From assembly GCA_017545185.1 (NCBI GenBank), contig JAFWQJ010000041.1, forward strand, positions 1-53,945: a DNA stretch of 53,945 bases, read 5' to 3'. A program made the position numbers and the translations under genes. Source of the DNA: Oscillospiraceae bacterium. GTDB lineage: Bacteria > Bacillota > Clostridia > Oscillospirales > Ruminococcaceae. Of the stretch, positions 2,990 to 53,945 are shown piece by piece. Positions within the stretch are counted from its first letter, which is position 1. Every line of letters begins with the position of its first letter. The notes under the pieces were generated by a model that saw only the letters and a program-made list of their open reading frames with translations, was not told the origin of the DNA and searched no databases.

Positions 2990-3128
2990 GGTATCGCTTC
3001 GCGATGATCTGAAATGAGGGCTCCGCCATCAAACTCCCGCCGGGGACTCGTCCCCGGACCCCATTATGTGTAACATGAAAGGACGCTGATAAACGATCGG
3101 CGTCTTTTTTTTTCCTGTCAGGCGGCAG
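2990..3128 (+). repeat. Hairpin-mosaic element, copy R1
   Basis: Begins on the base after a stop codon. Modules in order: A, GGTATCGCTTCGCGATGAT (hairpin with TTC loop); B, GAGGGCTCCGCC; C, GGGGACTCGTCCCC; and D, a terminator hairpin at 3081-3113. The same order recurs in copies R2-R7. It lies in the sense orientation of the upstream gene. The element ends somewhere near 3128; the exact right boundary is uncertain. Confidence 0.8.
3081..3113 (+). terminator. Intrinsic terminator (module D of R1)
   Basis: GGACGC and GGCGTC arms with TGAT/ATC inner pairing are followed by nine T residues. It ends the transporter/membrane/zinc-ribbon transcript. Confidence 0.8.
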
Positions 3129-10009: not shown

Positions 10010-10984
10010 TTGACAACGCAGCAGCTGACCTATGTGATCGCGGTCGCAGACAGTCAGAGCATATCCAAAGCGGCTGAGAAGCTGTATGTCACGCAGCCGT
10101 CGCTCAGCCAGTATATCCACAGCCTCGAAAAGCAGCTTGGCATCAAGCTGTTCGACCGCTCCGTCACGCCGATCAAGCTGACGGATGCCGGCGCGCTCTA
10201 TGTCGAATGGGCGCGCAAGCTGCTGGCCATGGAGGAGAGCATGAACAATGCCCTCTCCGACCTCATGGGACTGGAAACCGGCTCCGTGCGCATCGGCGCA
10301 TCCTCGTTCCGGGTGCGCTGTCTGCTCGCGCGGAGCATTGCGGCGTTCCATGCAAAATATCCCGGTATCCACCTTTCCATTCAGGAGGCGGATATGAAGC
10401 AGCTGCGCGATAAGCTGACCGCCGGTGAAATTGATTTCGCGATCGGCTCCGGCGAATTTGACGAGAAATCGTTTCATGTGGAGACGCTCGCGGAGGAACG
10501 CTTTTATCTGGCGGTCGCGCCGTCCAATCCGCTGACCGAAAGCCTGCCGGAGCCGCTCTCCGCGCAGGACATCATTCAGGCGACGCCGAAATTCCTGCGG
10601 CAGCCGCCGGTCGATCTGTCGCTGGTGAAGGACGAGGCGTTCGTCGCGGCGAATGCGGGCGAATACGACCGCGAAACGCTGTATGCAGTCTGCCGTCAGT
10701 GCGGCTTCACGCCGGATATCGAATACAGCGTGCAGACGATCGAGACGGTGTTCTCGTTTGTCTGCTCGAACATGGGCATCGCGCTGCTGCCGGATTCGCT
10801 GATCTACTACGGCAATTTCCAGCAGCACCCGAATTATTATCCGCTGCCGGATGAGCTGGGGCTCTGCAGCATTTCGCTGATCTCGCGCCGGAACGCGTTT
10901 CTGTCCAAGGCATCGCAGGCTTATGCGCTTCTGCTGAAGCAGCTTGTCGATGTCGGCACATGGCGCATGATCGGCGGCGCATAA
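10010..10984 (+). CDS. LysR-family transcriptional regulator
   Basis: The N-terminal helix-turn-helix (about 1-60; SISKAAEKLYVTQPSLSQYIHS) and a two-lobed effector domain (about 88-290; SVRIGASSF, IGSGEFDEK, NMGIALLPDSL) mark a LysR regulator of 324 residues. The TTG at 10010 is preferred because AAAGGAAG at 9993-10000 stands nine bases upstream; a GTG at 10001 would be too close to it. LysR proteins usually control a divergent neighbour, but the neighbours here lie on the same strand. The SGNH hydrolase gene begins 19 bases later and may be co-transcribed. Effector unknown. Confidence 0.88.
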   Translation: MTTQQLTYVIAVADSQSISKAAEKLYVTQPSLSQYIHSLEKQLGIKLFDRSVTPIKLTDAGALYVEWARKLLAMEESMNNALSDLMGLETGSVRIGASSFRVRCLLARSIAAFHAKYPGIHLSIQEADMKQLRDKLTAGEIDFAIGSGEFDEKSFHVETLAEERFYLAVAPSNPLTESLPEPLSAQDIIQATPKFLRQPPVDLSLVKDEAFVAANAGEYDRETLYAVCRQCGFTPDIEYSVQTIETVFSFVCSNMGIALLPDSLIYYGNFQQHPNYYPLPDELGLCSISLISRRNAFLSKASQAYALLLKQLVDVGTWRMIGGA

Positions 10985-11003
10985 CGGGGCATGGGGGTAG
11001 GAT

Positions 11004-12969: not shown

Positions 12970-13356
12970 TTGGAACTGCGTGCTGCGGATTGCTCTGCGA
13001 TCAGTTTGATATAAGGTATCCGCTGCGCGGATGCTATTTTGAATGGGGGAAGCAGCCCCGTTCCGGAGGTACTTCCCCCAAGCCCCTATCTTCCCGTGTA
13101 AGAACGCAGGGGAGTTTCGCGCTCTGCGGAGCGCGACGAGGGCGCTGCCATCGACCCGCCAGCTTTTTGAAAAAAGCTGGATCAAAAACTTTTGTGAGGC
13201 TGCAAACGGGAAGCCTGCCGCCCGACCGGCAGCCAAAAGGACGCCGATTATTTGTCAGCGTCCTTTTTTGTTACACATAACGGGGTCTGGGGACTAGTCC
13301 CCAGCGGGAGCTTGAGGGCGGAGCCCTCATTACGGATCATCGCGAAGCGATACCAC
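12970..13356 (-). repeat. Hairpin-mosaic element, copy R2 (with inverted lead modules)
   Basis: Fills the gene-free gap. Read on the minus strand from 13354 it shows module A, B (GAGGGCTCCGCCCTC), C (GGGGACTAGTCCCC), D, a GCTGCCGG segment, an AAAGTTTTTGATCC/AGCTTTTTTCAAAAAGCT segment, and GCGCTCCGCAGAGCGC. At 13015-13035 an inverted copy of module A (GGTATCCGCTGCGCGGATG on the plus strand) ends the 340-bp core like a terminal inverted repeat. It begins three bases after the stop of the minus-strand gene at 13357. Confidence 0.8.
13239..13269. terminator. Bidirectional terminator hairpin (module D of R2)
   Basis: GGACGC-CGA and TCA-GCGTCC arms are flanked by AAAA on the left and TTTTTT on the right. 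It can end the minus-strand heptad-repeat gene and back up the plus-strand terminator at 12930. Confidence 0.75.
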
Positions 13357-15978
13357 TTAAATCCCGTCCGTCACATAGATGAACCGGACGCTGCCGTTCA
13401 TCTCCGCCGATTTGCCGGAGAAGCTGGTATAGGACTGCGCCGCCGTGCGGAGTGTCCGGAAGCGCTCCGTCAGCTCCGGAAGTGTCTCGTCCGCGGCCTT
13501 CGCGATCTTCGCGATCCCCTCGGCATCGAATTTCTGCATACCGTCATTCAGCGTATTGGCGCCGGTTTTCAGCTGCGCGATGCCGTCGTTCAGCGCAGCA
13601 CCGCCGTTCTGCAGCGACTGCATCCCGCCGTACAGCTCCGCCGCGCCGCCGGAAAGCTTCTTCGTGCCGGTCAGCAGCTCCGTCAGCGAGGTGTAAAGCG
13701 TCCCCGCGCCGCCGGAAAGCTGGGTGCTGCCGTCAAGGATCGTGTGGAGACCGCCGTCCAGCGTGACCGTGCCGGTCTGCATCTGCATGAGGCCGCCGCC
13801 GAGTGCCTGCGCCCCGTCATAGAGCGCCGCAATGCCGCCGTCGAGCGCGTCGGCACCGCCGGTCAGCGCGGTCAGACCGCCGTGCAGCTGCGATGCGCCG
13901 CCGGAGAGCTGTGCAATGCCGCCGCGGAGCTGTTCGAGCCCCGTAAACAGGCTGCCGCTGCCTGCGGAGAATTTGCCGATGCCTTCATCGAGTACAGCCG
14001 CACCGCCGGAGAGCGTCTTTGCGCCGGCATTGAGCTGCTGTGCGGAGCTGTTCAGCTTTGCCGCGCCCTCTGCGAGCGCCTTGCCGCCGGCATTGAGCCC
14101 GGTCAGTCCCGCCTGCAGCTCATGTGCGCCTGCTGCGGCATCGTTCATGCCGCCGGAAAGCTGCGTCAGTCCGCCGGAGAGCTGCTCCGCGCCCTTCTGC
14201 AGACCCGCCGCGCCCGCACCGAGCGTGCCCTCTGCCTGCATGTTGTCCGCGATCTGCTGCTGTGCCGCGGTCGTCTGTTCCAGCGCACCGATCGCCGCCG
14301 CAAGCTCTGCGGAAGGCGTCTGCGCATAGAGTGCTTTCAGCGCCGCAAGTGCCTGCTGATTGGCCGCGACCGTCGTACTGAGTGCGGTGCCTGCCTGCGC
14401 GATACCCGCAGAGAGCTGTGCCGCACCGTCGTTCAGCGTATCCGCACCTGTTTTCAGTGTATCTGCGCCGGTTTTCGCATCTTCAAGACCCGCTGCGAGC
14501 GTGTCCGCACCGGACTTCGCGCTGTCAATGCCGCCGGCGACCGCCGCCGCCGCGCTGTCCAGAGAGCCCGTGCCGCCCGCAAGCTGCGCCATGCCGTCCG
14601 CGAGCTGCGCCGCACCGGAATGCACCTGCGCGCTGCCGTCCGCCAGTGCCTTGACGCCGGACTGCACTTCCTTTCCGCCGTCTGCGAGACGGTCTGCGCC
14701 GTCCTTCACCGCAGAGGCGCCTTTTTCCAGCGTATCTGCGCCGTTTTCCGCAGACGCAAGCCCCGCTTTGAGCTGTGCGGAGCCGTCCTTCGCATCATGC
14801 AGACCGTCCGTCAGCGAGGCCGCACCCGCGGTCACCTTGTCATAGCCTGCGGTCAGCACATCCGCGCCGTCAGCCGCCTGCTGAATGCCGCCGGTCAGCT
14901 GTTCCGCCGCCGCCGAGAGCGTCCCGGCGCCCGCCGTGATCTGTTCGGTGCCGCCGGTGAGCGTGACCGCGCCGTCCTTCAGCGATGCGGAGCCGTTCAG
15001 CAGCTTCTCGATGCCCGCGGTCAGATCGCCGGTGCCGTCGGAGAGCTTCGCAATGCCGTCGTAGAGCGAAGCCGTGCCGTCACAGAGCGCGTCCGCACCG
15101 TCGCGGAGTGCCTGCACCTGTTCGGTCAGGCTGTCCGTATCGAACAGCTGATCCGTGTCAAGCTTGCCGAACAGCTCATTCGATACGACCGTAACCGACG
15201 TATTCATGTGGAAATCGGTGACGTCCGCTTCCAGCTCCGCATATTCCGGCAGCTGATAATCGGACAGTCCGGTCTCATCCAGCCGCAGCGTATCATTCAC
15301 ACCCGGGAACGCCGCCCCGACCGCGATCAGCCGGTCGCCGTCGGAGATGAGCCGTCCGTTCTTGACCGATGCGTTCAGGCAGCTGCCGCTGTCCAGCACC
15401 GCCGCGCTGACCGCCAGAAACGGCACGGTCACGCGCTGCCCGTCAACGGTCGTCCCGGCGCAGCTCTGATAGCTCCAGCGGATGCGGAGATGCCCGCTCT
15501 TTCCCGCGAGGTCGGCGGGGGCGATCTCCTTTCCGTCCAGATAATACGTCATTTTCACATTGACCGGCGGCTGCTTGTCGGTCTTGCCCTGATAGTAGAT
15601 ATCATCGCCGGAGGCATTCCAGTTCAGGGTATCTCCGGACTGCGTGAACGGCTCCGTGCCCCTGACATTGACGATGCCGGTCAGCCCGGAGATATCGCTG
15701 AGCGCTTCCAGTGCCTGCGTATTTTTCAGCCAGTCGCTGACGATGACGTCCCGGACGGAAGCGTCCGCATTACAGAGCACATAGACGGTCTCGTCCTTGC
15801 AGGCTTCTCCGGATGCAGCCTTCCGGACAGCCGGAGCCGCCGGTTCTTCCGTCTCTGTCACGATCGCCGTATCTGCGGCGTTTTTCTCATTACCCTTTGC
15901 GTATGCCAGAGAGCCGGTCGCGCCTGCCGAGATCATAACGGCGAGCACGGCTGCGATCCATTTTCTGTAGTCTTTCAT
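13357..15978 (-). CDS. Secreted YhgE/Pip-like protein with long X-X-L-X-X-G repeats
   Basis: 873 residues. An ATG at 15978 preceded by GGAGG (15986-15990) gives a signal peptide (KWIAAVLAVMISAGATGSLAYA). After an N-terminal domain of about 260 residues come some 75 repeats of the type L-xx-G-xxx-L-xx-G (for example LSDGTGDLTAGIEKLLNG), about residues 290-840. These repeats are known from YhgE/Pip-type proteins encoded with RND/MmpL transporters and are predicted to form long helical coils. The C-terminal membrane domain of classical Pip proteins is absent, and the protein ends soon after FSGKSAEMNGSVRFIYV. It lies downstream of the MmpL gene and probably works with it at the cell surface. Confidence 0.85.
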   Translation of the reverse strand: MKDYRKWIAAVLAVMISAGATGSLAYAKGNEKNAADTAIVTETEEPAAPAVRKAASGEACKDETVYVLCNADASVRDVIVSDWLKNTQALEALSDISGLTGIVNVRGTEPFTQSGDTLNWNASGDDIYYQGKTDKQPPVNVKMTYYLDGKEIAPADLAGKSGHLRIRWSYQSCAGTTVDGQRVTVPFLAVSAAVLDSGSCLNASVKNGRLISDGDRLIAVGAAFPGVNDTLRLDETGLSDYQLPEYAELEADVTDFHMNTSVTVVSNELFGKLDTDQLFDTDSLTEQVQALRDGADALCDGTASLYDGIAKLSDGTGDLTAGIEKLLNGSASLKDGAVTLTGGTEQITAGAGTLSAAAEQLTGGIQQAADGADVLTAGYDKVTAGAASLTDGLHDAKDGSAQLKAGLASAENGADTLEKGASAVKDGADRLADGGKEVQSGVKALADGSAQVHSGAAQLADGMAQLAGGTGSLDSAAAAVAGGIDSAKSGADTLAAGLEDAKTGADTLKTGADTLNDGAAQLSAGIAQAGTALSTTVAANQQALAALKALYAQTPSAELAAAIGALEQTTAAQQQIADNMQAEGTLGAGAAGLQKGAEQLSGGLTQLSGGMNDAAAGAHELQAGLTGLNAGGKALAEGAAKLNSSAQQLNAGAKTLSGGAAVLDEGIGKFSAGSGSLFTGLEQLRGGIAQLSGGASQLHGGLTALTGGADALDGGIAALYDGAQALGGGLMQMQTGTVTLDGGLHTILDGSTQLSGGAGTLYTSLTELLTGTKKLSGGAAELYGGMQSLQNGGAALNDGIAQLKTGANTLNDGMQKFDAEGIAKIAKAADETLPELTERFRTLRTAAQSYTSFSGKSAEMNGSVRFIYVTDGI

Positions 15979-15998
15979 AATTATGCCTCCCGAATTAA

Positions 15999-16072
15999 GG
16001 TATCGCTTTGCGATGATTCCGAATGAGGGATCCGCCCTCATGTTCACACCGGGGACGTATCCCCGGATCCTG
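15999..16072 (+). repeat. Hairpin-mosaic element, short copy R3
   Basis: GGTATCGCTTTGCGATGAT (A, loop changed to TTT), then GAGGGATCCGCCCTC (B) and GGGGACGTATCCCC (C). Module D (terminator) and the later modules are missing. It lies inside the minus-strand MmpL/Pip operon and reads opposite to it. Confidence 0.8.
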
Positions 16073-16136
16073 TATCAATGATTCTGCACAGTTGCGCCGG
16101 CGCGCTTCAGATCAACGCCCGCAGGAGCTGCCCCGC

Positions 16137-18993: not shown

Positions 18994-20868
18994 TTATTCG
19001 GTGATGATCTTTGCGATAAACCGCAGCATCCATGTGAGGTCATCCGGCGTGATCTTGTCATCCTTGTCGCAGTAGGCATTTGCCTTGCCCTGCTCGGAGA
19101 TCACAAGCTTTTTGTCCTCGACGAGCAGTCTTGCGAGCATGACCGCATCCGAAACATCGACGGAGTTGTCGAGGTTGAGGTCGCCGCGCTTCGTGATCGT
19201 AAGCTGCTTGGCGGTCGTGGTCGTCGTGACCGGCTCCGCCGTGGTCGTGACCTTCGGCGTGGTGGTCGTCGCCTTCGGCGTGGTGGTCGTCGCCTTCGGC
19301 GTCGTGGTCGTCGCCTTCGGCGTCGTGGTCGTCGCCTTCGGCGTCGTAGTCGTCGCCTTCGGCGTCGTCGTTGTCGCCTTCGGCGTCGTGGTGGTCGTCG
19401 TAGTTGCGGTGGTTGTGGTCGTAGTGGTGGTAGTAGTCGTTGTTGTGGTAGTTGTCGTTGTTGTGGTAGTTGTCGTTGTCGTGGTTGTAGTCGTGGTCGT
19501 CGTTGTTGTGGTGGTTGTGGTGGTGGTTGTTGTCGTCGTTTCCGGCGTGGTAGTCGTTGTCGTCGTCGTCGTTGTTTCCGGCGTGGTGGTCATCACCGCA
19601 GTCTGCTGCGGGATCTGATAGGTGCGGAACACTGCCTTGCTGTCGTAGTTGTCCGCGCTTTCAAACGCCGGCATCGGCATGATCTGATACGTGATCAGGC
19701 CGCTGCCGTCAATGACGATCCCGTAGAGATACCCGAGTGCCTTTTCCTCCGCCGTCAGCGTATAGACCGTTTCCGCGTCGCCGCCATCCAGCGGCATCGC
19801 CATGATCTTCGTATCCGTGGTATAATAGATCTTCCCGTCATACACATCGGTCACGATATAGCAGGTCGTATACACGGAGCCGTCCGGGGTCGGCCATGCG
19901 GCACGGAGCGTGCGGAGCTTTTCTTTCCCGTCCGCATTGCCCCTGTAAAGATCGGCAACGATCTGCGAAGCGAACTGCACCTTGGTCGGGTCTGCGGCCA
20001 CGGCATAGAGCCATGTGCCGTCCGGCATCGGCTCCAGCGTGTCGATCGCGCCTTTCCAGAATGCATTTTCGTAGGCGTCGGAATCGCAGACGACCGCATT
20101 GCCCTCGGAAAAATAATTCCAGTCCGAAGCACTGTGCTGCCGGTCTGCCTGCATATAATCGTCGCTGCAGAGCATATAGCTGTGCATGGTATGCCCGAGC
20201 ATATCCGGCGCGGAATCGTCAAAGGTCGGGTCGGTGTGATACCAGTGCCCGTCCACTTTGACGACATTCCACATGTGGTTCAGGTCGTCGCTCGTGATCG
20301 AATAGCACGGAATGCCGACCTTTCTGCAGAGCAGGTTCATTGCGAGCGCATAGCCCTGACAGACCGCCGTGCCGCCGAGCAGTGCGGCGTAGGCATCCGA
20401 TTTTTCGTAGGTAAGGTCATATTCGCAGACCTCCGCGAGATAGTCGTGGAAAAACAGCACCTTCTCGGCATCCGACCAGTCCGGATTCACCATGCCGGTG
20501 ATGCGGCCGATCTCCGCATTGAATGTCTCGATCATACCCGGGATCTCAGCCTTGTCGTAGTTATACCGCGGGTTGACCGCCGAGACTCTGCCCGACCACT
20601 GCGATGTATTATACGTAAAGGACGAGCTGACATAGAAATAATCCGATTCCGTATACAGCATCCCGTAGTAGATATCCGCAACATCCTCAAACTTCAGGCG
20701 CAGCGAGGAAATGTCGATCCGGTCCTGCCGTTTCTCCCATGCCGTGCGGATCATCTGCCGCAGCGTGTCCTCCGCGGACGCCGCATAGACCGTGCCCGCC
20801 GGCAGAGCAGAACACAGCATCGCCGCGGAAAGCAGTCCCGCAGCCGTTCTGCGCAGTAATTGTTTCAT
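18994..20868 (-). CDS. Secreted transglutaminase-like protein with Thr-rich linker and C-terminal dockerin
   Basis: 624 residues from the ATG at 20868, which has GGAGGT seven bases upstream; a GTG at 20877 overlaps that site and is unlikely. It has a signal peptide (about 1-30) and a transglutaminase-like catalytic domain. That domain has Cys170 in GGTAVCQGYA, His198 in NHMWNVV and Asp213 in YHTDPTFDD, a complete triad. A beta-rich region (about 260-410) follows, then a linker of more than 60 nearly unbroken Thr and seven TTTTPKA-type repeats. A type I dockerin ends the protein (GDLNLDNSVDVSDAVMLARL ... DKDDKITPDDL). Such proteins act outside the cell as peptidases or crosslinkers and dock on a cohesin scaffold. 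Confidence 0.88.
   Translation of the reverse strand: MKQLLRRTAAGLLSAAMLCSALPAGTVYAASAEDTLRQMIRTAWEKRQDRIDISSLRLKFEDVADIYYGMLYTESDYFYVSSSFTYNTSQWSGRVSAVNPRYNYDKAEIPGMIETFNAEIGRITGMVNPDWSDAEKVLFFHDYLAEVCEYDLTYEKSDAYAALLGGTAVCQGYALAMNLLCRKVGIPCYSITSDDLNHMWNVVKVDGHWYHTDPTFDDSAPDMLGHTMHSYMLCSDDYMQADRQHSASDWNYFSEGNAVVCDSDAYENAFWKGAIDTLEPMPDGTWLYAVAADPTKVQFASQIVADLYRGNADGKEKLRTLRAAWPTPDGSVYTTCYIVTDVYDGKIYYTTDTKIMAMPLDGGDAETVYTLTAEEKALGYLYGIVIDGSGLITYQIMPMPAFESADNYDSKAVFRTYQIPQQTAVMTTTPETTTTTTTTTTPETTTTTTTTTTTTTTTTTTTTTTTTTTTTTTTTTTTTTTTTTTTTATTTTTTTPKATTTTPKATTTTPKATTTTPKATTTTPKATTTTPKATTTTPKVTTTAEPVTTTTTAKQLTITKRGDLNLDNSVDVSDAVMLARLLVEDKKLVISEQGKANAYCDKDDKITPDDLTWMLRFIAKIITE
19213..19592 (-). repeat. 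Thr-rich coding repeats: poly-Thr tract and TTTTPKA units
   Basis: About seven 21-bp units encode TTTTPKA (the last reads PKV), next to a run of Thr codons. Mixed third bases (acc, acg, aca, act) keep the tract from being a simple DNA repeat. Confidence 0.88.
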
Positions 20869-20881
20869 TCCGAACACCTCC

Positions 20882-26788: not shown

Positions 26789-27979
26789 ATGACAAATCCA
26801 AACGGACGTTTCGGCATCCACGGCGGACAGTACATTCCGGAAACGCTCATGAATGCCGTCATCGAACTGGAGACCGCATACAACCATTATAAGAACGACC
26901 CCGATTTCAATGCGGAGCTCGAAACACTGTTCAACGAATACGCAAACCGCCCCTCGCGGCTTTATTACGCCGAAAAGCTGACCAAGGCACTCGGCGGCGC
27001 GAAGATCTACTTAAAGCGCGAGGACTTAAACCACACCGGCGCGCATAAGATCAACAATGTGCTCGGTCAGGCGCTGCTCGCGAAGAAAATGGGCAAGACC
27101 CGCCTGATCGCAGAGACAGGCGCAGGTCAGCACGGCGTCGCGACCGCGACGGCAGCGGCACTCATGGGCATGGAATGCGTCGTCTTTATGGGCGAGGAGG
27201 ACACGAAGCGTCAGGCGCTGAACGTCTACCGGATGCGGCTGCTCGGCGCGGAGGTCATCCCGGTGACGACCGGCACGGCGACGCTCAAGGACGCCGTCTC
27301 CGAGGCGATGCGCGAATGGACGAACCGCATCGACGATACGCATTACTGTCTCGGCTCGGTCATGGGACCGCACCCGTTCCCGACGATCGTCCGTGATTTT
27401 CAGGCTGTCATCTCGAAGGAGATCAAACAGCAGATCATGGAAAAGGAAGGCAGGCTGCCGGATGTCGTCATGGCATGTGTCGGCGGCGGCTCCAATGCGA
27501 TCGGCACCTTCTATCATTTTATCCCGGATGAGAGTGTCCGCCTGATCGGCTGCGAGGCCGCAGGCAGAGGCATCGACACGTTCGAGACCGCCGCGACGAT
27601 CAGCACCGGAAAGCTCGGTATTTTCCACGGCATGAAGTCCTACTTCTGCCAGGATGAATACGGCCAGATCGCGCCTGTTTATTCGATCTCCGCCGGCCTT
27701 GACTATCCCGGCGTCGGCCCGGAGCATGCGCATCTGTACGACATCGGCCGTGCGGAGTACGTTCCCGTGACCGATGACGAAGCGGTCAATGCATTTGAAT
27801 TTCTCTCCCGCACGGAGGGCATCATTCCGGCGATTGAATCCGCGCACGCCGTTGCACATGCGCTGAAGATCGCGCCGGAAATGGACAAGGACAAGATCAT
27901 CGTCATCACGATCTCCGGCAGAGGCGACAAGGACTGTGCGGCGATCGCACGGTACAGAGGGGAGGATATCCATGAGTAA
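26789..27979 (+). CDS. trpB: Tryptophan synthase beta chain
   Basis: 396 residues, of usual length. Lys87 in [10 protein letters not shown] is the pyridoxal phosphate Schiff-base residue. [26 protein letters not shown] and [10 protein letters not shown] (phosphate cup) are intact. It joins indole, delivered through the alpha subunit tunnel, with serine. AGGAGG precedes the ATG with normal spacing, stronger than for the other trp genes, which may offset the interrupting YhfC gene. It overlaps trpA by 8 bases. Confidence 0.97.
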
Positions 27980-28748
27980 GATCCGCGATGCATTCAAAAA
28001 CGGCAAGGCGTTTATCCCGTTCATCACCTGCGGCGACCCCGATCTCGAAACGACCGGAAAGATCGTCCGCGAAATGGCGGCGGCAGGCGCAGACCTCATT
28101 GAACTGGGGATCCCGTTCTCCGACCCGACCGCGGAAGGCCCCGTCATTCAGGGCGCGAATATCCGCGCGCTGGCAGGCGGCATCACGACAGACAAGATCT
28201 TCGCATTTGTCAAGGAGCTGCGTAAGGATGTGACCGTACCGCTCGTGTTCATGACCTATGCGAACGTGGTCTTTTCCTACGGTATCGAGCGGTTTGTGAA
28301 GTGCTGTGCGGAGGCAGGCATGGACGGCCTGATCCTGCCGGATGTGCCGTTTGAGGAAAAGGACGAATTTGCGCCGATCTGCAAGGCGAACGGCATTGAT
28401 TTCATTTCGCTGATCGCGCCGACCTCTGAGAACCGCGTCGCGATGATCGCGAAGGAAGCAGAGGGCTTTGTGTATCTTGTATCGAGCCTCGGCGTGACCG
28501 GTATGCGCGCGGAGATCAGAACGGATCTGGAAGCGATCACCGCGAAGATCAAAGAAAACACGGATGTTCCGTGCGCGATCGGCTTCGGTATCTCGACGCC
28601 GGAGCAGGCTGCGGAGCTTGCGGGCTGTGCGGACGGCGTGATCGTCGGCTCGGCGATCGTGAAGCTGATCGCGGAACACGGCAGAGAAGCCGCGGCTCCG
28701 GTCGGCGCCTTTGTCCGCGCGATGAAAAAAGGTATCGCTGCGCGATGA
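27972..28748 (+). CDS. trpA: Tryptophan synthase alpha chain
   Basis: 258 residues. TIM barrel with [55 protein letters not shown] and [12 protein letters not shown]. Glu44 corresponds to the general acid-base Glu49 of the E. coli enzyme. The position of catalytic Asp60 is Glu55 here (TAEGP instead of ADGP), a conservative change I have seen in related Firmicutes. The last residues, GIAAR, and the stop codon TGA (28746-28748) are encoded by module A of repeat copy R4, so the element defines the C-terminus. Confidence 0.95.
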
Positions 28749-29190
28749 TTCAGAATGGGCTTTCAGCCCAAACCTGACCAATGGGACACTGTCCCTTTGG
28801 AATCCCATTATAAAGAGCAAGAGGGTGCTGATGTAACAATCGGCACCCGTTTTGCAAAACGCTGCCGGTCATGCACTTTGCAGCCGGTCTGCATCCATAT
28901 CAAAAGTTTCGGTCAAGCCTTTTCAAAGGCTTGCAGAGTCCAGAGACAGCGTCTCCGGTCGCCGTCCACAGACGGCGAAACTCCCCTATCGTCAGGCGCA
29001 CCGAAAGGGTGAATTCCAAAAACGCTCCGGGGGAGCGTTTTTGAAAGAGGGACGCCCTGTAAGAGAGGGCGTCCCTAAGCGGATTGCAAAGCAATTCGCA
29101 GCGCCCGCAGCACGCAGGAGCGACGCAGTCGCGACGGGTGACCGGGCGTTCCGGGTTCTTAGGGCTGGAAGCCCTAAGTTCTGCTGTGCA
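28731..29190 (+). repeat. Hairpin-mosaic element, long copy R4
   Basis: Module A (28731-28749) overlaps the trpA end. B is GGGCTTTCAGCCC (28757-28769), C is GGGACACTGTCCC (28783-28795) and D is a terminator (28823-28853). A GCTGCCGG segment, an AAAGTTT/CAAGCC segment, and ACGCTCCGGGGGAGCGT follow. Module I is an 11-bp stem with loop GTAAGAG (29048-29076), then comes an AAGCGGATTGC / GCAATTCGC segment, and last AGGGCTGGAAGCCCT. The 494-base gap before the next gene is almost wholly this element. Confidence 0.85.
28823..28853 (+). terminator. Terminator of the trp operon (module D of R4)
   Basis: GGGTGC-TGAT and ATC-GGCACCC arms, then GTTTTG. The T run is short, so termination may be partial. 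Confidence 0.65.
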
Positions 29191-29242
29191 CGCGTGCGCA
29201 TTTGATAAAAGGCACTCAATCAAACAGAAAGAGGTGTTTCAG

Positions 29243-29719
29243 ATGTATCAGAATCAGGACGGCGATTCAACTGTACAGCAAACAATGGAGCAGCGCATCA
29301 TCGGGCGGCTGGAAGAACAGCTCGGATTGAGCGGGCTCGAATCGAACCCCAGTCTCCCGCTGCCGGGCGAACCCGGTGTCCGGATCCGGCCGGATTTCTA
29401 TTCCGCGCAGCATAAGATCATCGGTGAGATCCATTCGCATCTCGGAAAGCTGAAACCGGCGCAGCAGAAAAAAATCGCGGCGGATATCCTCAAGCTGCAC
29501 CTGTTTGACCCGGAGAATGAATATCTGAAAATCATTGCCGTATGCGACGAGGAAGAAAAGAAACAGTTGAAAGGAAACGGCTGGCTTCCGGCAGCGATCC
29601 GGTTATTCAAAATTGAGATCATGCTGATCAACCTGACCGAGCAGGAACGGAACGATCTCCGCGCCGCCATGCGCCGGCAGAATATGCACCCGGAGCAGCC
29701 CGGGGAATCCGCAGAATAA
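29243..29719 (+). CDS. Hypothetical protein, possible PD-(D/E)XK nuclease-like fold
   Basis: 158 residues, start ATG at 29243 after AAAGAGG. I do not recognise a named family. The core VRIRPDFYS, KIIGEIHSHLGKLKPAQ, KIAADILKLHLF and LKIIAVCDEEE follows the order of a PD-(D/E)XK nuclease-like fold (PD, then E-x-H where E-x-K is usual, then a helix and a strand). The replaced Lys argues against normal catalysis. A variable Gln-rich N-terminus and an acidic C-terminus flank it. It is a single gene between element R4 and its own terminator; no promoter was found. Confidence 0.65.
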   Translation: MYQNQDGDSTVQQTMEQRIIGRLEEQLGLSGLESNPSLPLPGEPGVRIRPDFYSAQHKIIGEIHSHLGKLKPAQQKKIAADILKLHLFDPENEYLKIIAVCDEEEKKQLKGNGWLPAAIRLFKIEIMLINLTEQERNDLRAAMRRQNMHPEQPGESAE

Positions 29720-29724
29720 ACAAA

Positions 29725-29755
29725 GGACAGGTGCCGCAGCGCGCCTGTCTTTTTC
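29725..29755 (+). terminator. Intrinsic terminator before pheS
   Basis: GGACAGG and CCTGTC arms with a GC-rich loop, then TTTTTC. Confidence 0.82.
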
Positions 29756-29778
29756 TTGCGCCGATGATTGTGAAAGGC

Positions 29779-29807
29779 TTGACAATCTCACGGATTTGCG
29801 GTATACT
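29779..29807 (+). promoter_or_regulatory. Sigma-A promoter of pheST
   Basis: TTGACA (29779-29784), a 17-base spacer and TATACT (29802-29807), about 47 bases before pheS. There is no T-box between promoter and gene. Confidence 0.88.
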
Positions 29808-29853
29808 ATAGATTGGAGTTTTCCGAAAAATCAAAGAGAGGAAGGTATCGAAT

Positions 29854-30897
29854 ATGGAAGAGCAGATCAAAGCGATGCGGCAAAAGATCGAAGCCGCCGC
29901 TGCCGCCATTACCGATTCCAAAGAAATGTATCAGCTCCGGAAGCAGTACCTTGACAACAAGGCAGGTCAGATCTCCGCGCTGATGAAGAATATGCGCGAT
30001 CTTGCACCGGAGGAGCGTCCGGCGTTCGGCAAGATCGTCAACGAGCTGAAAACATGGGCACTCGATTTCTTTACCGCACAGGATGCCCGCCTGAAGGCTG
30101 CCGAGCTCGCAAAGAAGAACGCAGCCGAGCAGATCGACGTCACGATGCCTGCGCCTGTCCGTTCCTGCGGCGCGCTGCATCCGAATACGCTGATCGCGAA
30201 TGAGCTGATCGGGATTTTCTCCGGCATGGGCTTTGAGATCTACGAAGGCCCCGAGATCGAAACGGATTACTATAACTTTACTGCCCTGAATACGCCGCAG
30301 GATCACCCGGCGCGCGATATGCAGGATACGTTCTATGTATCGCCTGAGCTGCTGCTCAGAACGCAGACCTCCTCCGGTCAGATCCGCTACATGAAGGGCG
30401 ACGACAAGACCCCGAAGCATGAGCCGCCGATCAAGATCCTTTCGCCGGGCAAGGTGTTCCGCTCCGACGACGACGCAACGCATTCCCCGATGTTCTCGCA
30501 GATGGAGGGTCTGGTCGTGGACAAGGGCATCACGCTCTGCGACCTGCAGGGTATGCTGGACGAGTTTGCGCGCAATGTGTTCGGCGAGGGCGTCAAGACC
30601 CGTCTGCGCCCGAGCTACTTCCCGTTCACGGAGCCGTCCGTCGAGGTCGATGTGAGCTGCTTTGAGTGCGGCGGCAAGGGCTGCCGTCTCTGCAAGGACA
30701 CCGGCTGGATCGAGGTGCTCGGTGCGGGCATGGTCAACCGCAAGGTGCTTGAGAACTGCGGCATTGATCCGGATGTGTACACCGGCTTTGCGTTCGGCAT
30801 GGGCATTGAGCGCATCGCCATGCTGAAATACGGCATCCCGAACATCAAGATGCTGTTTGAGTCGGATGTCAGAGTGCTTTCGCAATTCCACGAATAA
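29854..30897 (+). CDS. pheS: Phenylalanyl-tRNA synthetase alpha subunit
   Basis: 347 residues with an N-terminal coiled-coil tRNA-binding part (about 1-85) and a class II catalytic core. Motif 1 area is [19 protein letters not shown], with [16 protein letters not shown] next. Motif 2 area is [17 protein letters not shown], and motif 3 is [18 protein letters not shown] Cys-rich insert ([12 protein letters not shown], about 268-279) lies between motifs 2 and 3 and could bind zinc; it is found in many bacterial PheS. With PheT it forms the alpha2-beta2 enzyme. An AAGAGAGGAAGG tract precedes the ATG. Confidence 0.96.
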
Positions 30898-31068
30898 GCA
30901 GGCTGTGCCTGTCTCCGTTTCACTTCGCCTTTATTTTGCGTTTGATGCTGCACAGTGCGTTTTTCTTTCGGTCGGGGCGGCTTACGTCTCCGTACAGATG
31001 CGCTGCTGATTTTGGGCGGAGCTTTGTGAGAATCCGCAAACGAAATTAAGTGAAAGGAACTAATAACG

Positions 31069-33504
31069 ATGATCGTTCCGTTAAGTTGGTTAAAGGAATA
31101 CGTTGATATTGATGTGACGCCGCAGGAGCTCGAAACGAAGCTCTTTGACTGCGGCTTTGAGGTCGAAACGCTGACCGAGCTCGGCGCAGAGATCTCCGGC
31201 GTTGTGGTCGGTCTGGTCGAACAGTGCGAGCCGATCCCGGAGACACATCTCTCCGTCTGTCAGGTTGACTGCGGCGAGCACGGCAAATTCCAGATCTGCT
31301 GCGGTGCCGATAATGTCAGAGCAGGCGGCAAATATCCCGCCGCGCTGGTCGGTGCGCAGGTCTATGCGACCGCAAGAGACCATGTGACGGTCGAAGGCAC
31401 CATGAAGATCAAGAAGGGCAAACTGAAGGGCTTTGAGTCGCAGGGTATGCTCTGCTCCGGCATCGAGATCGGTCTGAATGAGGATCTCTATCCGGGCGCG
31501 GAATACTGCGGCCTGCTCGTGCTGCCGGACGACGCGCCGGTCGGTGCGGATATCAAGCCGCTGGTCGGCCTCGATGACTGGATGTACGATATTTCGATCA
31601 CGGCAAACCGTCCGGACTGCATGAGCGTGCTCGGCATTGCCCGCGAGGTCGCCGCTGCACTCGGCAAGCCGCTGAAAATGCCGGCTGTGGACTACAAGAC
31701 CGACGGCACGAAGCTGGACGGCTTCAAGGTCACGGTCGAGGACGCAGACCTCTGCCCGCGCTATCAGGCGCATTATGTCCGCAATGTGAAGATCGCGCAG
31801 TCTCCCGCATGGATGCGCCGCCGCCTTGCGCTGGTCGGCATCCGCTCGATTTCGAACATCGTCGATATCACGAACTATGTGCTGAAAGAGATCGGCCAGC
31901 CGATGCACGCGTTCGATCTGCGTCAGCTGGAGGAAAAGCAGATCGTCGTCCGCAGAGCGAAGCAGGACGAAACGATCGTCACGCTGGACGGAAAGGAATT
32001 CAAGCTCAATCCGAACAATCTCGTGATCTGCGACGGCAAAAAGCCGGTCGCACTGGCGGGCATCATGGGCGGCCTCAATTCCGAGATCAAGGACGACACC
32101 GCGGATGTGGTGTTTGAGTCCGCAAAGTTCATGCGCGACAATGTCCGCAAGACCTCCCGTGCGCTCGGCCAGCATTCCGACAGCTCCCAGCGCTTTGAGA
32201 AGGGCGTGGACGAATACGCCACACAGCTCGGCTTAAAGCGTGCGCTGCACCTGATCGAAGAACTCGGCTGCGGCTCCGTGACCGATTCCGGCTTTGCGGA
32301 GGCTGTCTCCGCTGATCCGACCGTCACCCGTCCGCTGACCGTCTCGATCGCGAAGGTCAATGCGCTGCTCGGCATCACTGTGCCGGACGACGAGATCCGC
32401 CGCATTCTGACGAACCTCGATTTCCGGCCGGTGATCGACGGTGACAAGCTCTCCGTGCAGATCCCGCCGTACCGCGAGGATATCGAAAACGCGCCCGACA
32501 TCGCGGAGGAACTGATCCGCATGTACGGCTACGACCACATCACCCCGACCTTCCTTGCAGCCGCATCGGTGACGAACGGCGGCCGCAGCGCAGCACAGAA
32601 CAGTCTGCTGAAATTAAAGCGGACGCTCGCAGCACAGGGTCTTTACGAGGCGATCCACTACTCGTTCTTCTCGCCGAAGGATCTTGACCTGCTGCGCATC
32701 CCGCAGGATGCACCGGAGCGTCAGGCGATCCGCATTCTGAACCCGATCTCCGAGGATCTTTCGATCATGCGCACGATGCTGGCGCCGTCCATGCTGAATG
32801 CGGTGATCCGCAATGTCCGCCGCGGCAATGATGCAGGCGGGCTGTTCGAGGTCGCAAAGACCTATCATTCCGCAGAGGAACACCCGGCGGCAGAGCCGGA
32901 GGAGCGCGAGGCACTGGCAATCGGCCTGTTCGACGGCGGCAGGCTGAGCTTCTTTGACGGCAAGGCTGTGCTCGAAGCACTGGCCGAGGCATTCCGTCTG
33001 ACCTTCACCTACAAAAAGCCGGAAAATCCGGAAAAATATCCGTTCCTGCATCCGGGCATGAGTGCCGTTGTCTCGCTCGGTGACGAGGAGATCGGCTGGG
33101 TCGGTATGCTGGCGCATGACCTGACCGACGCTGAGGTGCCGGAGCACGCAGTCTGCATGGCAGAGCTTGACCTGACCGTGCTGCGTCCGTATCTGAACAA
33201 GCCGGTCGCATTTGAGAACCTGCCGAAGTTCCCGGTCGAACAGCGTGATATCGCGCTGCTGGTCGGTGAGGATGTGATCTGCGCAGATCTCGAAGCCTGC
33301 ATGAAGCGCGCCTGCAAGTCGCTGAACCGTGTGAAGCTGTTTGACGTGTACAAGGGCAAGCAGATCGAAGCAGGCAAGCAGTCGCTGGCATTCTCGCTGT
33401 GGTTCCGCAGCGACGACCATGCGCTGACGGACAAGGAAGTCGATCAGTTCGTCGCGAAGATTCTGAAAAACCTCGCCAAGGACTTTGAAGCGACCCAGCG
33501 TTAA
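31069..33504 (+). CDS. pheT: Phenylalanyl-tRNA synthetase beta subunit
   Basis: 811 residues, full length. The N-terminal tRNA-binding (OB-fold) domain runs about 40-150, then the B3/B4 editing domain (about 205-385; ISNIVDITNYV). The B5 domain (about 405-480) has IPPYREDIENAPDIAEELIR. The core follows, and the C-terminal FDX-ACB domain (about 715-811; FPVEQRDIALLV) binds the anticodon stem. AAAGGAAC precedes the ATG. A gap of 171 bases after pheS holds no recognisable signal, and both genes are probably read from the pheS promoter. Confidence 0.96.
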   Translation: MIVPLSWLKEYVDIDVTPQELETKLFDCGFEVETLTELGAEISGVVVGLVEQCEPIPETHLSVCQVDCGEHGKFQICCGADNVRAGGKYPAALVGAQVYATARDHVTVEGTMKIKKGKLKGFESQGMLCSGIEIGLNEDLYPGAEYCGLLVLPDDAPVGADIKPLVGLDDWMYDISITANRPDCMSVLGIAREVAAALGKPLKMPAVDYKTDGTKLDGFKVTVEDADLCPRYQAHYVRNVKIAQSPAWMRRRLALVGIRSISNIVDITNYVLKEIGQPMHAFDLRQLEEKQIVVRRAKQDETIVTLDGKEFKLNPNNLVICDGKKPVALAGIMGGLNSEIKDDTADVVFESAKFMRDNVRKTSRALGQHSDSSQRFEKGVDEYATQLGLKRALHLIEELGCGSVTDSGFAEAVSADPTVTRPLTVSIAKVNALLGITVPDDEIRRILTNLDFRPVIDGDKLSVQIPPYREDIENAPDIAEELIRMYGYDHITPTFLAAASVTNGGRSAAQNSLLKLKRTLAAQGLYEAIHYSFFSPKDLDLLRIPQDAPERQAIRILNPISEDLSIMRTMLAPSMLNAVIRNVRRGNDAGGLFEVAKTYHSAEEHPAAEPEEREALAIGLFDGGRLSFFDGKAVLEALAEAFRLTFTYKKPENPEKYPFLHPGMSAVVSLGDEEIGWVGMLAHDLTDAEVPEHAVCMAELDLTVLRPYLNKPVAFENLPKFPVEQRDIALLVGEDVICADLEACMKRACKSLNRVKLFDVYKGKQIEAGKQSLAFSLWFRSDDHALTDKEVDQFVAKILKNLAKDFEATQR

Positions 33505-33652
33505 GCGCGGAGCCCGGGCAGGCATTTCCCTCCGGCGGGCGGTGCGCGAACCTCTCCCGGCAGTCAGAACTGCACGCCGCTGAACGCGGCTTCTGCGGCT
33601 TTCATGCTCCCAATACTGAAGCCCGCCGAAAGAGCAGAAAAAATAAATAAAA

Positions 33653-33683
33653 GGGTGCTGATGTAACAATCGGCACCCTTTTT
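33653..33683 (+). terminator. Terminator of pheST (first D hairpin)
   Basis: GGGTGC-TGAT and ATC-GGCACCC arms, then TTTTT. Confidence 0.75.
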
Positions 33684-34077
33684 CGCTGCCGGTCAGGAAC
33701 TTCGCCCCCGGCACACATCCATATCAAAAGTTTCGGTCAAGCCTTTTCAAAGGCTTGCAGGTTCTTAGGGCGAAGCCCTAAGCCGCTCACTGCAGTGAGC
33801 GGAATCCTTTAGCGTCAGGCGCACCGCAAGGGTGAATTTCAAAAACGCTCCGGGGGAGCGTTTTTGAAAGAGGGACGCCCTGTAAGAGAGGGCGTCCCTA
33901 GGCGAATCGCAGAGCGATTCGCAGCGCGTGCTGAACATAGGAGCGACGTCAGTCACGACGAGTGAAGCACGCAGGTTTCCAAAGGGCAAGAGCCCTTTGG
34001 GTCGGCAGTGCCGACAGCCATTTCCCTCCGGAGGCGGTGCGCGAACCTCTCCCGATACTGAAATAGATCGAAAGCAC

Positions 34078-34115
34078 AAAAAGGACGCTGATTCACTCAC
34101 ATCAGCGTCCTTTTT
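34078..34115. terminator. Bidirectional terminator between pheT and nadE
   Basis: AAAAA-GGACGCTGA and TCAGCGTCC-TTTTT around a 10-base loop: a perfect 9-bp stem that works from both sides of the convergent genes. Confidence 0.85.
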
Positions 34116-34148
34116 CTGTATGTATCGGCTTTCTGTGCGCTTCCCGCA

Positions 34149-34895
34149 TTACTCCGCACACGGGTCAAACGGGAATGCCGGCATCATCTTGAGCTTAAAG
34201 AGATTCTGCTTATGCTTGCGGTCGATGAGCGCCTTTTTCTCCGGGGCGGGCTCAATGCCCTCGCGGAGATAGAGATCGAGCTCCGCGTAGGTAAACCCGA
34301 GGTTATCCTCATCCGTTTTGCCGCAGAGACCGTCCGACGGTGCCTTATCGACGAGCTGTACCGGAAGACCGAGTGCTCTGCCGATCGCCTTGACCTCGGT
34401 GACGGTGAAATTCGCGAGCGGTGCAAAATCGCCGACGCTGTCGCCCCAGCGCGTGGAGTAGCCGACCCAGTCCTCGGAGAAATTGCAGGTGTTAGCAACT
34501 CTGCCGTTGACGCTCTGGGAAACGGCGTAGACCGTTGTCATGCGGATGCGCGGCGGCAGATTGGTCGTCGCCTGCACGGAGAGCGGCAGGGACGCCGCGA
34601 CGGCGCGTTCCAGCGCATCGGCAGCCTCGCCGATGTTCACTGTCACATTGGTGATGCCGAGGTGCTTGCAGAGCAGCCTGGAATCGTCGATATCGGGCTG
34701 CTCGCCGCGGGGCATCAGCACGCCGACGACTCTGTGTACGCCGAGCGCCCTGCAGAGCAGCGCCGCACAGACAGAGCTGTCCTTTCCGCCGGAGACGCCG
34801 AGGACAGCCTTGCAGCCGTCGCCGTTTTCGGCGAACCAGTCCTGGATCCAGCGGCAGCAATCCTCAATCGCGCGGTCAACATCAAAACGGTACAT
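34149..34895 (-). CDS. nadE: Ammonia-dependent NAD+ synthetase
   Basis: 248 residues. The N-type pyrophosphatase loop SGGKDSSVCA (about 35-44), RMTTVYAVSQ, NTCNFSEDWVGYSTRWGDSVGDFAPLANFT-like signature (given in parts) and PSDGLCGKTDEDNLGFTY are all present. It converts deamido-NAD to NAD with ammonia; no glutaminase domain is attached. The ATG at 34895 (MYRFDV) is nine bases from the AAAGG site; an ATG at 34904 lies against that site. It ends the long minus-strand run that begins at yqfC, 39 bases after the CPBP protease gene. Confidence 0.93.
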   Translation of the reverse strand: MYRFDVDRAIEDCCRWIQDWFAENGDGCKAVLGVSGGKDSSVCAALLCRALGVHRVVGVLMPRGEQPDIDDSRLLCKHLGITNVTVNIGEAADALERAVAASLPLSVQATTNLPPRIRMTTVYAVSQSVNGRVANTCNFSEDWVGYSTRWGDSVGDFAPLANFTVTEVKAIGRALGLPVQLVDKAPSDGLCGKTDEDNLGFTYAELDLYLREGIEPAPEKKALIDRKHKQNLFKLKMMPAFPFDPCAE

Positions 34896-34934
34896 GGTAA
34901 TCATCCTTTCAGGTTTTGGGGGCGGTATTGTTTC

Positions 34935-36062
34935 TCACATGGTATATGCGGTGTACCACGCCATGCCGATATGCACGGCGATGAGCACCCAGAAAAGCGG
35001 TGCCGTCACGACGAGCCGCTTGGTGCGGGCACTCTGGTGCGGCGTCAGGTCGGGCATCCGTTCGGTCAGCAGCATATAAAAGAGGGAGACGGTGCCGAGC
35101 AGCAGCACGAACAGCTTGCAGACAACCTCTGCCTTGCGGAAGGTGCTGCCGGGAAGATAAAGTCTGCCTGCTTCCTTCAGCATGGCGAAGGAATTGACGC
35201 AGATATGCGTGATGATCGCAGGGGTGACGGAATCGTGCCGGATCGTGATATACGCAAGCAGGATCCCGAACGGGAACGTAAACAAAAACTGCGGGAGATT
35301 CTCGTGCATCAGCGCAAAGAGCAGCGCGGTCATCAGAATGCCGAACCGCTGGCTGACGCGGCTGAGATTTTTCAGTGCGAAGCCTCTGAGCAGCAGCTCC
35401 TCGGTGATCGGCCCGAGCACGCAGACATAGAGCACGAGCAGCGCTGATTTTGAGACAGAGCCGTCCAGCGCGATATCCGGTGTATACACGGGAACATGCG
35501 CCTGCTCCAGCAGCTTTGTGAGCCAGTCCGCGGCATAGCCCGCCAGCATCTGGATCCAGAGCCCGAGCATGATGTAGGAGACCGTCCTTGTGGCGGTGAG
35601 GCCGCGCAGCCGGAAATACTGTCCCTTCGGCAGATGCGTCAGCGCGGAGCCGATGAGAAACGCGGCCAGGTTGCCGACGGTGAACGCGATCAGCGTCAGT
35701 GCGGTATTGATCGCGCTGTCGTCCAGATACTGCATGACGATCATCTGGTAATTCTCCGGCAGCTCCCCGAGCCGTTTCAGGTCGTTATGCCGCAGCGCGG
35801 CAGCGGCGCCGGTCTGCATCAGAATGTAGACCGTCGAAGCAGTCACGAACGCAAACAGCAGCGTCAGAAAGGTCAGTGCAAAGCAGCGTCTGAGGGCTGT
35901 CCGTTCGGTCTGCTGCGGGATCAGCGGGAGCTTGCAGTCCGGCATATCGAGCGTCGGGAGGATCTCGCGGTAATCGGGGCTGTAGTCCGGCTCCTCTGTC
36001 GGGTTCCGGAACGGATTGCTGAGATCGACCGGAGAGATCTCCGAGTAATCAGCTTGCTTCAT
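34935..36062 (-). CDS. CPBP-family intramembrane metalloprotease
   Basis: 375 residues with an N-terminal cytoplasmic part of about 55 residues and about eight membrane helices. The CPBP/Rce1 (Abi) signature is complete: EELLLRGF with Glu221-Glu222, then His253 in LLFALMHENL and His286 in IITHICVNS. Members cleave prenylated or other membrane-bound peptides, or take part in bacteriocin self-immunity; no substrate is suggested here. GGAGAGG precedes the ATG at 36062. It starts 13 bases after mutS2, so it is co-transcribed with it. It is the second intramembrane protease of the window (see 26048). Confidence 0.9.
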   Translation of the reverse strand: MKQADYSEISPVDLSNPFRNPTEEPDYSPDYREILPTLDMPDCKLPLIPQQTERTALRRCFALTFLTLLFAFVTASTVYILMQTGAAAALRHNDLKRLGELPENYQMIVMQYLDDSAINTALTLIAFTVGNLAAFLIGSALTHLPKGQYFRLRGLTATRTVSYIMLGLWIQMLAGYAADWLTKLLEQAHVPVYTPDIALDGSVSKSALLVLYVCVLGPITEELLLRGFALKNLSRVSQRFGILMTALLFALMHENLPQFLFTFPFGILLAYITIRHDSVTPAIITHICVNSFAMLKEAGRLYLPGSTFRKAEVVCKLFVLLLGTVSLFYMLLTERMPDLTPHQSARTKRLVVTAPLFWVLIAVHIGMAWYTAYTM

Positions 36063-45474: not shown

Positions 45475-45924
45475 ATGTCGGGCGCAGGATATATACAGAA
45501 GCCGCTTTCGCGGCATGAGGTACAAGACTGTCGGGCGCCCCGACCAAAGGGCTCCCGCCCTTTGGAAACCTGCACGCCCGGTCACTCGTCGCGACTGCGT
45601 CGCTCCTACGTGCTGCGGGCGCTGCGGATTGCTCTGCAATCCGCTTGGAATAAGGTATCCGCTTCGCGGATGCTATTTCAGAATGGGAGCCGCTCTTACC
45701 GGCTCCCAAGCCCTTCGTGCGCTTGAACGCGAGGGGAATTTCGCGCTCTGCGGAGCGCGACAAGGGCTCCGCCCTTAATCCGCAAACTTTTGAAAAAGTT
45801 TGATCAAAACTTTTATTTTTGCCCGACCGGTTACGCCCCCTTTATCCACATAACGGGGTCTGGGGACTGGTCCCCAGCGGGGGCTTGGGGGCAGCGCCCC
45901 CATTTCTGATGCATCGCAGATACC
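45475..45924 (-). repeat. Hairpin-mosaic element, copy R6, within the yqfC-yqfD operon
   Basis: Fills the gap between two genes of one operon. On the minus strand it starts at the last base of the yqfC stop (TAG then GTATC). B is GGGGGCGCTGCCCCC and C is GGGGACCAGTCCCC. Then come AAAGTTTTGATCAAACTTT, GCGCTCCGCAGAGCGC, a GTAAGAG-loop stem (45685-45707) and an inverted copy of A (GGTATCCGCTTCGCGGATG on the plus strand, 45654-45672). The terminator module D has been lost: between C and the GGTCGGGC segment only GGATAAAGGGGGCG remains. Confidence 0.85.
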
Positions 45925-53757: not shown

Positions 53758-53945
53758 GGTATCGCTTCGCGATGATCTATAATGGGCTCCGCCCAAACCC
53801 GCCAAAGGGACACTGTCCCTTTGGAATCCTATTATAAAGAACAAGAGGGTGCTGACGTTACAGTCGGCACCCTTTTTCGCTGCCGGTCAGGCACTTCGCA
53901 TCCGGCACACATCCATATCAAAAGTTTTGATCAAACTTTTTCAAA
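53758..53945 (+). repeat. Hairpin-mosaic element, copy R7 (runs off the window)
   Basis: Starts on the base after a TAA stop. A is GGTATCGCTTCGCGATGAT, B is GGGCTCCGCCC and C is CCAAAGGGACACTGTCCC with TTTGG on its right arm. D is a terminator (53847-53876), then come GCTGCCGGTCAGGC and CAAAAGTTTTGATCAAAC. The right end lies outside the window. Confidence 0.85.
53847..53876 (+). terminator. Intrinsic terminator (module D of R7)
   Basis: GGGTGC-TGA and TC-GGCACCC arms followed by TTTTT. Confidence 0.8.

Follow-up and report, generated by a model that had tools for sequence, protein, structure and literature searches.

The window analyzed here is a 53,945-nucleotide stretch from a gut/rumen Oscillospiraceae bacterium whose genome is a 3.6 Mb draft (94 contigs, 95% complete). 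The closest named relative among the loci compared is Ruminococcus sp. Phil11 (G297), titled a metagenome assembly, which is 95.1% identical over 5.8 kb (locus L031). In the window, trpA (ORF 27936-28748) ends in a TGA at 28746-28748 that lies within a short hairpin, A. This hairpin opens a series of unlike hairpins, B, C and D, followed by a longer distal series. An earlier note on this DNA had placed the element at 28731 to 29190 and had named seven places where such hairpins recur. The family is not confined to these coordinates: the first proved to be a left edge only, and the unit overlaps the trpA stop. All seven places exist and are joined by direct and inverted repeats of ~60-150 nt (Table 1), with the corrections that 33522-34115 lacks A, and that the copy at 15999 is decayed and lacks D. 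Between them, the copies at 2990, 13336 (minus strand), 28731, 45924 (minus strand) and 53758 contain the sequences that the note gives for modules C, B and D.

Table 1. Hairpin modules and copies of the family in the window.
Feature	Position	Strand	Basis or remark
Entry hairpin A, GGTATCGC-TGC-GCGATGAT	28731..28749	+	Sequence; ORF 27936-28748
Hairpin B GGGCT-TTC-AGCCC, 3-nt linker AAA, third tract CCTGA	28757..28777	+	Sequence
Hairpin C, type II, CCAATGGGAC-ACT-GTCCCTTTGG	28778..28800	+	One mismatch
Hairpin D, GGGTGCTGAT...ATCGGCACCC with GTTTT tail	28823..28853	+	Intrinsic-terminator-like
Distal hairpin series: AAGCCTTTTCAAAGGCTT, CCAGAGACAGCGTCTCCGG, AACGCTCCGGGGGAGCGTT, GGGACGCCC..GGGCGTCCC, CTTAGGGCTGGAAGCCCTAAG, others	28854..29190	+	Repeat links, RNA/DNA folding
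A-B-C-D copy, directly 3' of the stop of ORF 2252-2989	2990..3110	+	G297 synteny breaks here
A2-type end hairpin GGTATCCGCTGCGCGGATGCT	13015..13035	+	Far end of the 13015-13354 composite
A-B-C-D copy adjoining the 3' end of ORF 13357-16047	13234..13354	-	In the 13015-13354 composite
Decayed A-B-C copy without D	15999..16085	+	G297 form less decayed
Unlike 3'-end cassette 'F' (GCGCGGAGCCCGGGCAGGCATTTCCCTCCGG...), directly 3' of the stop of ORF 31069-33504	33505..33640	+	
D hairpin and distal series, without A, between convergent ORFs	33582..34115	+	
Composite copy	45517..45924	-	Distal series runs to 45517
A-like entry of the 45517..45924 composite	45908-45924	-	B GGGGGCGCTGCCCCC, C GGGGACCAGTCCCC
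A2-type end of the 45517..45924 composite	45654-45674	+	
A-B-C-D copy directly after ORF 52558-53757	53758..53945	+	Cut by the window end

The recurrence of these hairpins is beyond chance. A covariance model (R1; 119 positions, 28 pairs) derived from 16 copies in the source genome and the close relative found ten matches in the window at E≤4.3e-4 (cmsearch), four of which belong to the model and so match by construction. The window and further loci of the same genome hold 44 distinct A hairpins, and a loose A pattern gave 93 matches, some of them due to chance, against one for the pattern read backwards. Compared with shuffled sequences, the segment 28731-28860 folds as RNA with z=-6.4, and 28731-29190 with z=-10.0 as RNA and z=-9.6 as DNA. 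The model matches and the fold scores together confirm the note's description of a dispersed, modular, structured family. The copy at 33582..34115 contains a second D near 34080-34115, and the related part of the distal series (33640-34110) has 63 BLAST matches in its own genome, itself included.

On the strand of A, the unit consists of A, a few nucleotides, AAT, B, AAA or AAG, a pyrimidine third tract, C and D. The A stem has the general form GGTATCGC-NNN-GCGATGAT, its constant 5' sequence wherever copies were read is GGTATC, GGTGTC or something close to these, and a small nested palindrome, AACATGAAGAAACTTGTTTCTTCATGTT or a close variant, is present in 14 of 63 A copies. An example of B is GGGGC-TCC-GCCCC; C takes the forms CCAAAGGGAC-NNN-GTCCCTTTGG, CTTAAGGGAC... 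and CTGGGGAC..., and is separated from D by CCCATTATG or a similar sequence. D itself is GGACGCTGA...TCGGCGTCC or GGGTGC...GCACCC, A-rich on its 5' side and T-rich on its 3' side. The swap between GGACGC and GGGTGC stems that the note had described thus holds here, but other species fill the slot with quite different stems: GCCCCCGCC in G699, where the 20 copies examined have variants of one D stem, GCCCCGA in three of four G705 copies, and GCCGC in G686. Some copies run through further hairpins to an inverted A2 end (GGTATCCGC...GCGGATG), as in the window at 13015-13354 and in L123 at 2001-2351 and 10713-11067, so that A-type hairpins stand inverted at both ends of some copies only. With regard to terminal inverted repeats of the MITE kind, an extended end pattern, C[A/T]G..TGT.GA.., matched nine times, eight of them at places of the element. 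In other genomes of the genus, pairs of opposed units surround one D (L380, L391 and L399, read by eye).

The unit has a narrowly defined position relative to genes, whose ends were called with a simple purpose-made ORF scorer. The A1 hairpin starts between -25 and +15 nt from a same-sense gene end in 28 of 30 copies of the source genome and 22 of 26 copies of G297, compared to none of 14 and none of 17 for A2 ends. Where the next gene falls within the stretch, it is convergent for 17 of 28 and 14 of 24 A1 copies, respectively. Rather than only starting at the stop codon, A may supply it, and trpA of G297 ends in a different entry module that also supplies the stop. A terminator-like hairpin is found within 230 nt downstream of 20 of the 30 A copies in the source genome, as opposed to 2 of 30 control stretches taken from within the genes upstream; the other 10 copies have none within this distance. 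From its sequence, D resembles an intrinsic terminator and likely ends transcription; a general terminator scan of 28000-35000 did not list it. A second 3'-end cassette (GCGGGGAGCCCCCGC..GGCATTTCCCTCCGG..), unlike the A unit, occurs at 33505-33640 and at L136, L260, L274 and their orthologs. It begins right at the stop codon or close to it, and in orthologs it stands either in place of the A unit or behind it.

The earlier note had named dozens of copies in a genome-wide search as a result that would support the family. R1 (E≤0.01, up to 150 candidates scored per genome) found at least 140 in the source genome and at least 138 in G297, followed by G295 (at least 89), G246 (at least 45) and G298 (at least 24). 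Among the matches listed, the remaining eight genomes searched had 0-7, and the numbers outside the genus were seven in G150, four in G249, one in G037 and none in G015 and G136. With stricter filters, E≤0.001 and up to 59 candidates scored per genome, matches were present in 27 of 30 sampled genomes of the genus, the source genome included (26 of the 29 others). Of 31 genomes sampled from outside the genus, 3 had one or two matches each. The family is therefore genus-wide and genus-restricted. A class-wide hairpin was considered and rejected, as an A2-like pattern appeared in only 3 of 391 genomes of a class sample (the source genome, G015 and G401). The A-hairpin pattern was found in 10 of 297 genomes of the taxonomic family, including the source genome and two others of the genus, and elsewhere in other surroundings. 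In other genera of that family, the A hairpin, with stems ATCTGC/GCAGAT and ATCGGC/GCCGAT, adjoins tandem heptamer-like repeats TTGACAR, AATGCAT and TTAACAR (L181, L183, L184, L185, L190-L192, L195, L196, L199, L201, L203 and L205); many of these loci have an inverted arm further along. They represent a separate repeat family that shares this entry hairpin. The G699 genome (a 1.7 Mb draft, 77% complete) contains at least 59 rather uniform copies; in its loci L360-L379 some copies are in tandem, and 15 of the 20 are less than 600 nt away from the end of a contig.

Comparison with close relatives indicates rapid turnover. At collinear loci with flanks ~89-97% identical to G297, the interiors differ by whole modules. 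The 13015-13354 composite retains its A2 half but switches the type of B, C and D together, the 13234..13354 copy having the other type of all three in G297. Hairpins have been swapped, lost or added at seven of nine collinear loci compared (L112, L113, L122, L123, L137, L138 and L144), and modules were kept at L115 and L142. A larger set of ortholog pairs was sorted by eye; 18 pairs were tried and 16 were readable, L268/L311 and L248/L312 not being alignable. The type was the same in 1 of the 16 (L117), an element or remnant with changed modules was present on both sides in 7 (L111, L114, L119, L133, L135, L255 and L256), and the A unit was present on one side only in 8 (L129, L136, L257, L260, L262, L266, L267 and L274), with no more than a short remnant opposite it; this tally overstates the turnover, because the loci were picked for having no exact A match in the other genome. 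Synteny with G297 ends at the window elements at 2990 and 28731, and the two flanks of L131 and L143 map to different places in G297. Some of these swaps and synteny breaks could be assembly errors at repeats, both main genomes being many-contig drafts. Gene ends here act as exchangeable cassettes able to supply stop codons and likely terminators, and 3' ends consequently turn over much faster than the genes themselves.

In the alignment of 16 copies, which leaves out L305 (a misplaced row) and L117 (another D), 96.1% of cells are paired. Two-sided changes occur at eight pairs, whereas slid versions have 0-2 such pairs and shuffled ones 4.0 on average; they occupy 32 cells, compared to 0-7 when slid. 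The covariation score is 0.199 against 0.109 for shuffles, and the number of further pair types was not above shuffles (15 against 16.0) for these copies, which are related, so that their changes are not independent events. The compensatory changes on which the earlier note had based its case are thus real, but they do not prove selection on structure at each copy, since whole hairpins are exchanged. Self-templated correction could also keep palindromes perfect, as are 104 of 146 hairpins in 63 sequences. Of 16 hairpins with a T-G pair, 12 were listed, and 11 of those are D. Outside D, about four G-U cases stand against four A-C cases among the mismatches listed, partly outside the element and too few to tell, while a U-G wobble is present in the sense strand of D in 15 of the 16 aligned copies. 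An asymmetry between G-U and A-C as proof of RNA selection was accordingly dropped for all modules except D, for which alone it is informative, and the note's proposal of selection on RNA is supported mainly for that module.

A part of the unit that the earlier note had not mentioned is the pyrimidine tract 3 nt after B, which is the mirror image of the 3' arm of B and hence the parallel complement of its purine arm. The arm pairs GAGGG/CCCTC, GGAG/CTCC, GGGGA/TCCCC and GAGG/CCTC are accompanied by the third tracts CTCCC, CCTC, CCCCT and CTCC, respectively. Out of 145 units, 47 have an A in the purine arm; six of these were removed by eye as not being hairpin B (L047, L094, L158, L273, L404 GAA and L408 AAGGGA). 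The mirror rule is obeyed by 36 of the remaining 41, several of which are near-identical copies from one genome, G696, and none has a direct copy. By allele, the rule holds for 19 of 22 GGAG, 10 of 10 GGGGA, 6 of 8 GAGGG and 1 of 1 GAGG units, the five exceptions being L238, L403, L406, L408 and L410. In a scan of the genus for the GGAG hairpin, which overlaps the 41-unit set, 30 copies were found in 12 of 30 genomes (12 of them in G696), with the third tract CCTC in 27, CCTT or CCCC in the rest and CTCC in none. Since 15 of 98 all-G arms are likewise accompanied by a third tract with a single terminal T, GGGGA carries less weight as evidence than the GGAG and GAGGG alleles do. The copy at 28757..28777 is a divergent allele that fits the rule in part only.

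Strand switching yields inverted or direct copies and not mirrors, and palindrome correction does not make a tract of this kind. An intramolecular triplex, on the other hand, needs exactly such a mirror match, with C-G-C and T-A-T triads in the sense strand and G-G-C and A-A-T triads in the antisense strand. The three-way match is thus the rule for an intrastrand triplex, which we infer that B and its tract may form. The mirror requirement is likewise stated for H-DNA in PMC4666352, which also describes bacterial triplex motifs known by sequence and in vitro, and footprinting in E. coli that did not support a stable triplex in vivo. Several observations speak against a triplex: B would provide just 3-5 triads compared to the six demanded by ITxF, the sense-strand form requires protonation of C, the many copies represent a small number of alleles, and the allele at 28731 is divergent and fits in part only. 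We regard it as a tentative possibility that B and its tract are a selected intrastrand triple helix in single-stranded DNA or RNA, perhaps itself driving exchange or rearrangement. If so, the genus would carry, spread across it in hundreds of copies, a bacterial triplex motif that covaries in nature. Three stretches of the same strand that change together, in four alleles and at least a dozen genomes of the genus, offer an evolutionary handle on the triplex question.

No mobiliser or mobility intermediate was found. The Y1_Tnp domain (PF01797) is absent from the source genome and from 18 of 21 other genomes of the genus searched (19 of 22 in total), including the high-copy genomes G297, G295 (99% complete), G687, G692 and G699, several of the genus drafts being incomplete (G699 at 77%); the same search was positive in 5 of 14 control genomes. 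A Y1 protein is present in G246, G685 and G108, the first two with at least 40 copies each and the last with almost none. RAYT mobilization as the main explanation was rejected because high-copy genomes lack Y1, even though G246 and G685 have both. A general target-site duplication, as would mark a MITE, was not found either. With 280 nt downstream used, 6 of 137 copies had flanking direct repeats of at least 14 nt, where controls averaged 0.5 (range 0-4), and 4 of 137 had repeats of at least 18 nt, where controls averaged 0.2 (range 0-2), the latter in three G246/G705 loci, namely L391, L392 (twice, in a tandem array) and L396 (a tandem duplication). In the source genome and G297, 1 of 94 copies had a flanking repeat, of 14 nt. 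A narrower test using 450 nt downstream, which left out L391 and L396 and took in only three copies from 20 short stretches, gave 3 of 125 against 2 of 125 in the control. Duplication as a general feature was rejected, two of the three repeat loci (L392 and L396) being tandem duplications. The exact direct repeats that flank the element at L391 and L392 (G246) and L396 (G705) are 32-34 nt long; at L391 and L392 the repeated flank is a whole terminator-like hairpin of 32-33 nt, and this resembled a duplication on insertion.

Various known bacterial repeats resemble the family in part, among them BOX repeats, which are modular. The note had known of no named family that fits, and none was found: Rfam 15 has no family at or above its gathering threshold in the window, and the open-access literature searched contains none that fits the element. 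REPs and BIMEs share with it short, high-copy extragenic palindromes, inverted pairs and a location near, and for the most part downstream of, gene 3' ends, as described in PMC3733652. That source reports, for two REP-rich genomes, that REPs between convergent genes mostly lie within 20 bp of gene ends, that GTAG REPs often supply the stop codon, and that GTAG REPs have a cognate RAYT whereas CGTC REPs lack one. The present family lacks the GTAG/CGTC tag and, in 19 of 22 genus genomes, Y1. It further differs in its fixed succession of several unlike hairpins and in having a terminator-like hairpin within the unit. TM_ECO/PIT motifs (Holder et al. 2015, PMC4666352) resemble B in three consecutive G/C-rich blocks able to form triads on one strand, and the family in their 3-nt second loop and many copies. 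TM_ECO loci are described there as varying more than controls among related E. coli strains, which is reminiscent of the behavior seen here. The purine arms of B (3-5 nt) and its 3-nt linker compare with an ITxF stem of 6-15 nt and loops of 1-6 nt (PMC4666352); the family also differs from TM_ECO/PIT in that the motif is set in a larger cassette and that the triad rule was seen via covariation. The pneumococcal BOX, RUP and SPRITE elements are likewise small, structured and interspersed, and are judged parasitic; the abstract on them mentions neither stop-codon placement nor a built-in terminator (PMC3049150). Stem-loop sequence families, surveyed in 40 genomes, are also repeated, mostly intergenic and of common secondary structure (PMC2267715). 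The present family fits best among mosaic extragenic palindromes, working like a REP/BIME whose unit incorporates a terminator-like hairpin and a motif of the triplex type.

We consider it probable that these genus-wide, modular palindromic repeats belong to the REP/BIME kind and serve as cassettes for gene 3' ends. A unit opens at the stop codon with A, continues with B and its mirror tract and C, and usually ends with D; two opposed units can share one D, and a longer form adds hairpins up to an inverted A-type end. Copies, which presumably are mobile, might be swapped or homogenized by inter-copy recombination or template switching, aided by single-stranded hairpins at replication forks, and might owe their persistence to being tolerated at gene ends and to D stopping transcription. 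A simpler account, in which template switching corrects the arms of neutral palindromes and gene conversion spreads them without selection on structure, strikes us as unlikely. It is consistent with the exchange of whole hairpins, the large share of perfect ones, the decay of the 15999 copy and the lack of a clear G-U excess outside D, but it fails to account for the preserved position at stop codons, order of slots, 3-nt linker and terminator tail in the face of D stems that differ wholly between species, and for a mirror-image tract that strand switching does not make.

Little probability attaches to REP/BIME proper, that is, tagged palindromes moved by a RAYT (Y1) transposase that has since been lost. 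The size, copy number, inverted ends and 3'-end placement are all REP-like, and three of the 22 genus genomes do have Y1, G246 and G685 among them being rich in copies, but the GTAG/CGTC tag is absent and Y1_Tnp is missing from the source genome, G297, G295 and G699, all of them high-copy. It is also improbable that the element is a structured regulatory RNA, such as a 3'-UTR element, mRNA stabilizer or riboswitch-like structure acting on the upstream transcript. Its sense orientation 3' of the stop, strong folding and the frequent wobble in D would suit such a role; however, orthologs in the relative often carry another cassette or none, so that no single gene seems dependent on it, and the window has no Rfam match. 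Chimeric joining in the draft assemblies is very unlikely to account for the exchanges and the breaks in synteny. The breaks do coincide with elements (2990 and 28731), as do the split flanks of L131 and L143 in G297, yet 13015-13354, L112, L138 and L144 are collinear on both sides and differ in the interior alone. The window also contains tandem 21-nt repeats at 8631-9050 and 19195-19587, inside the predicted ORFs 6803-9019 and 18994-20877.
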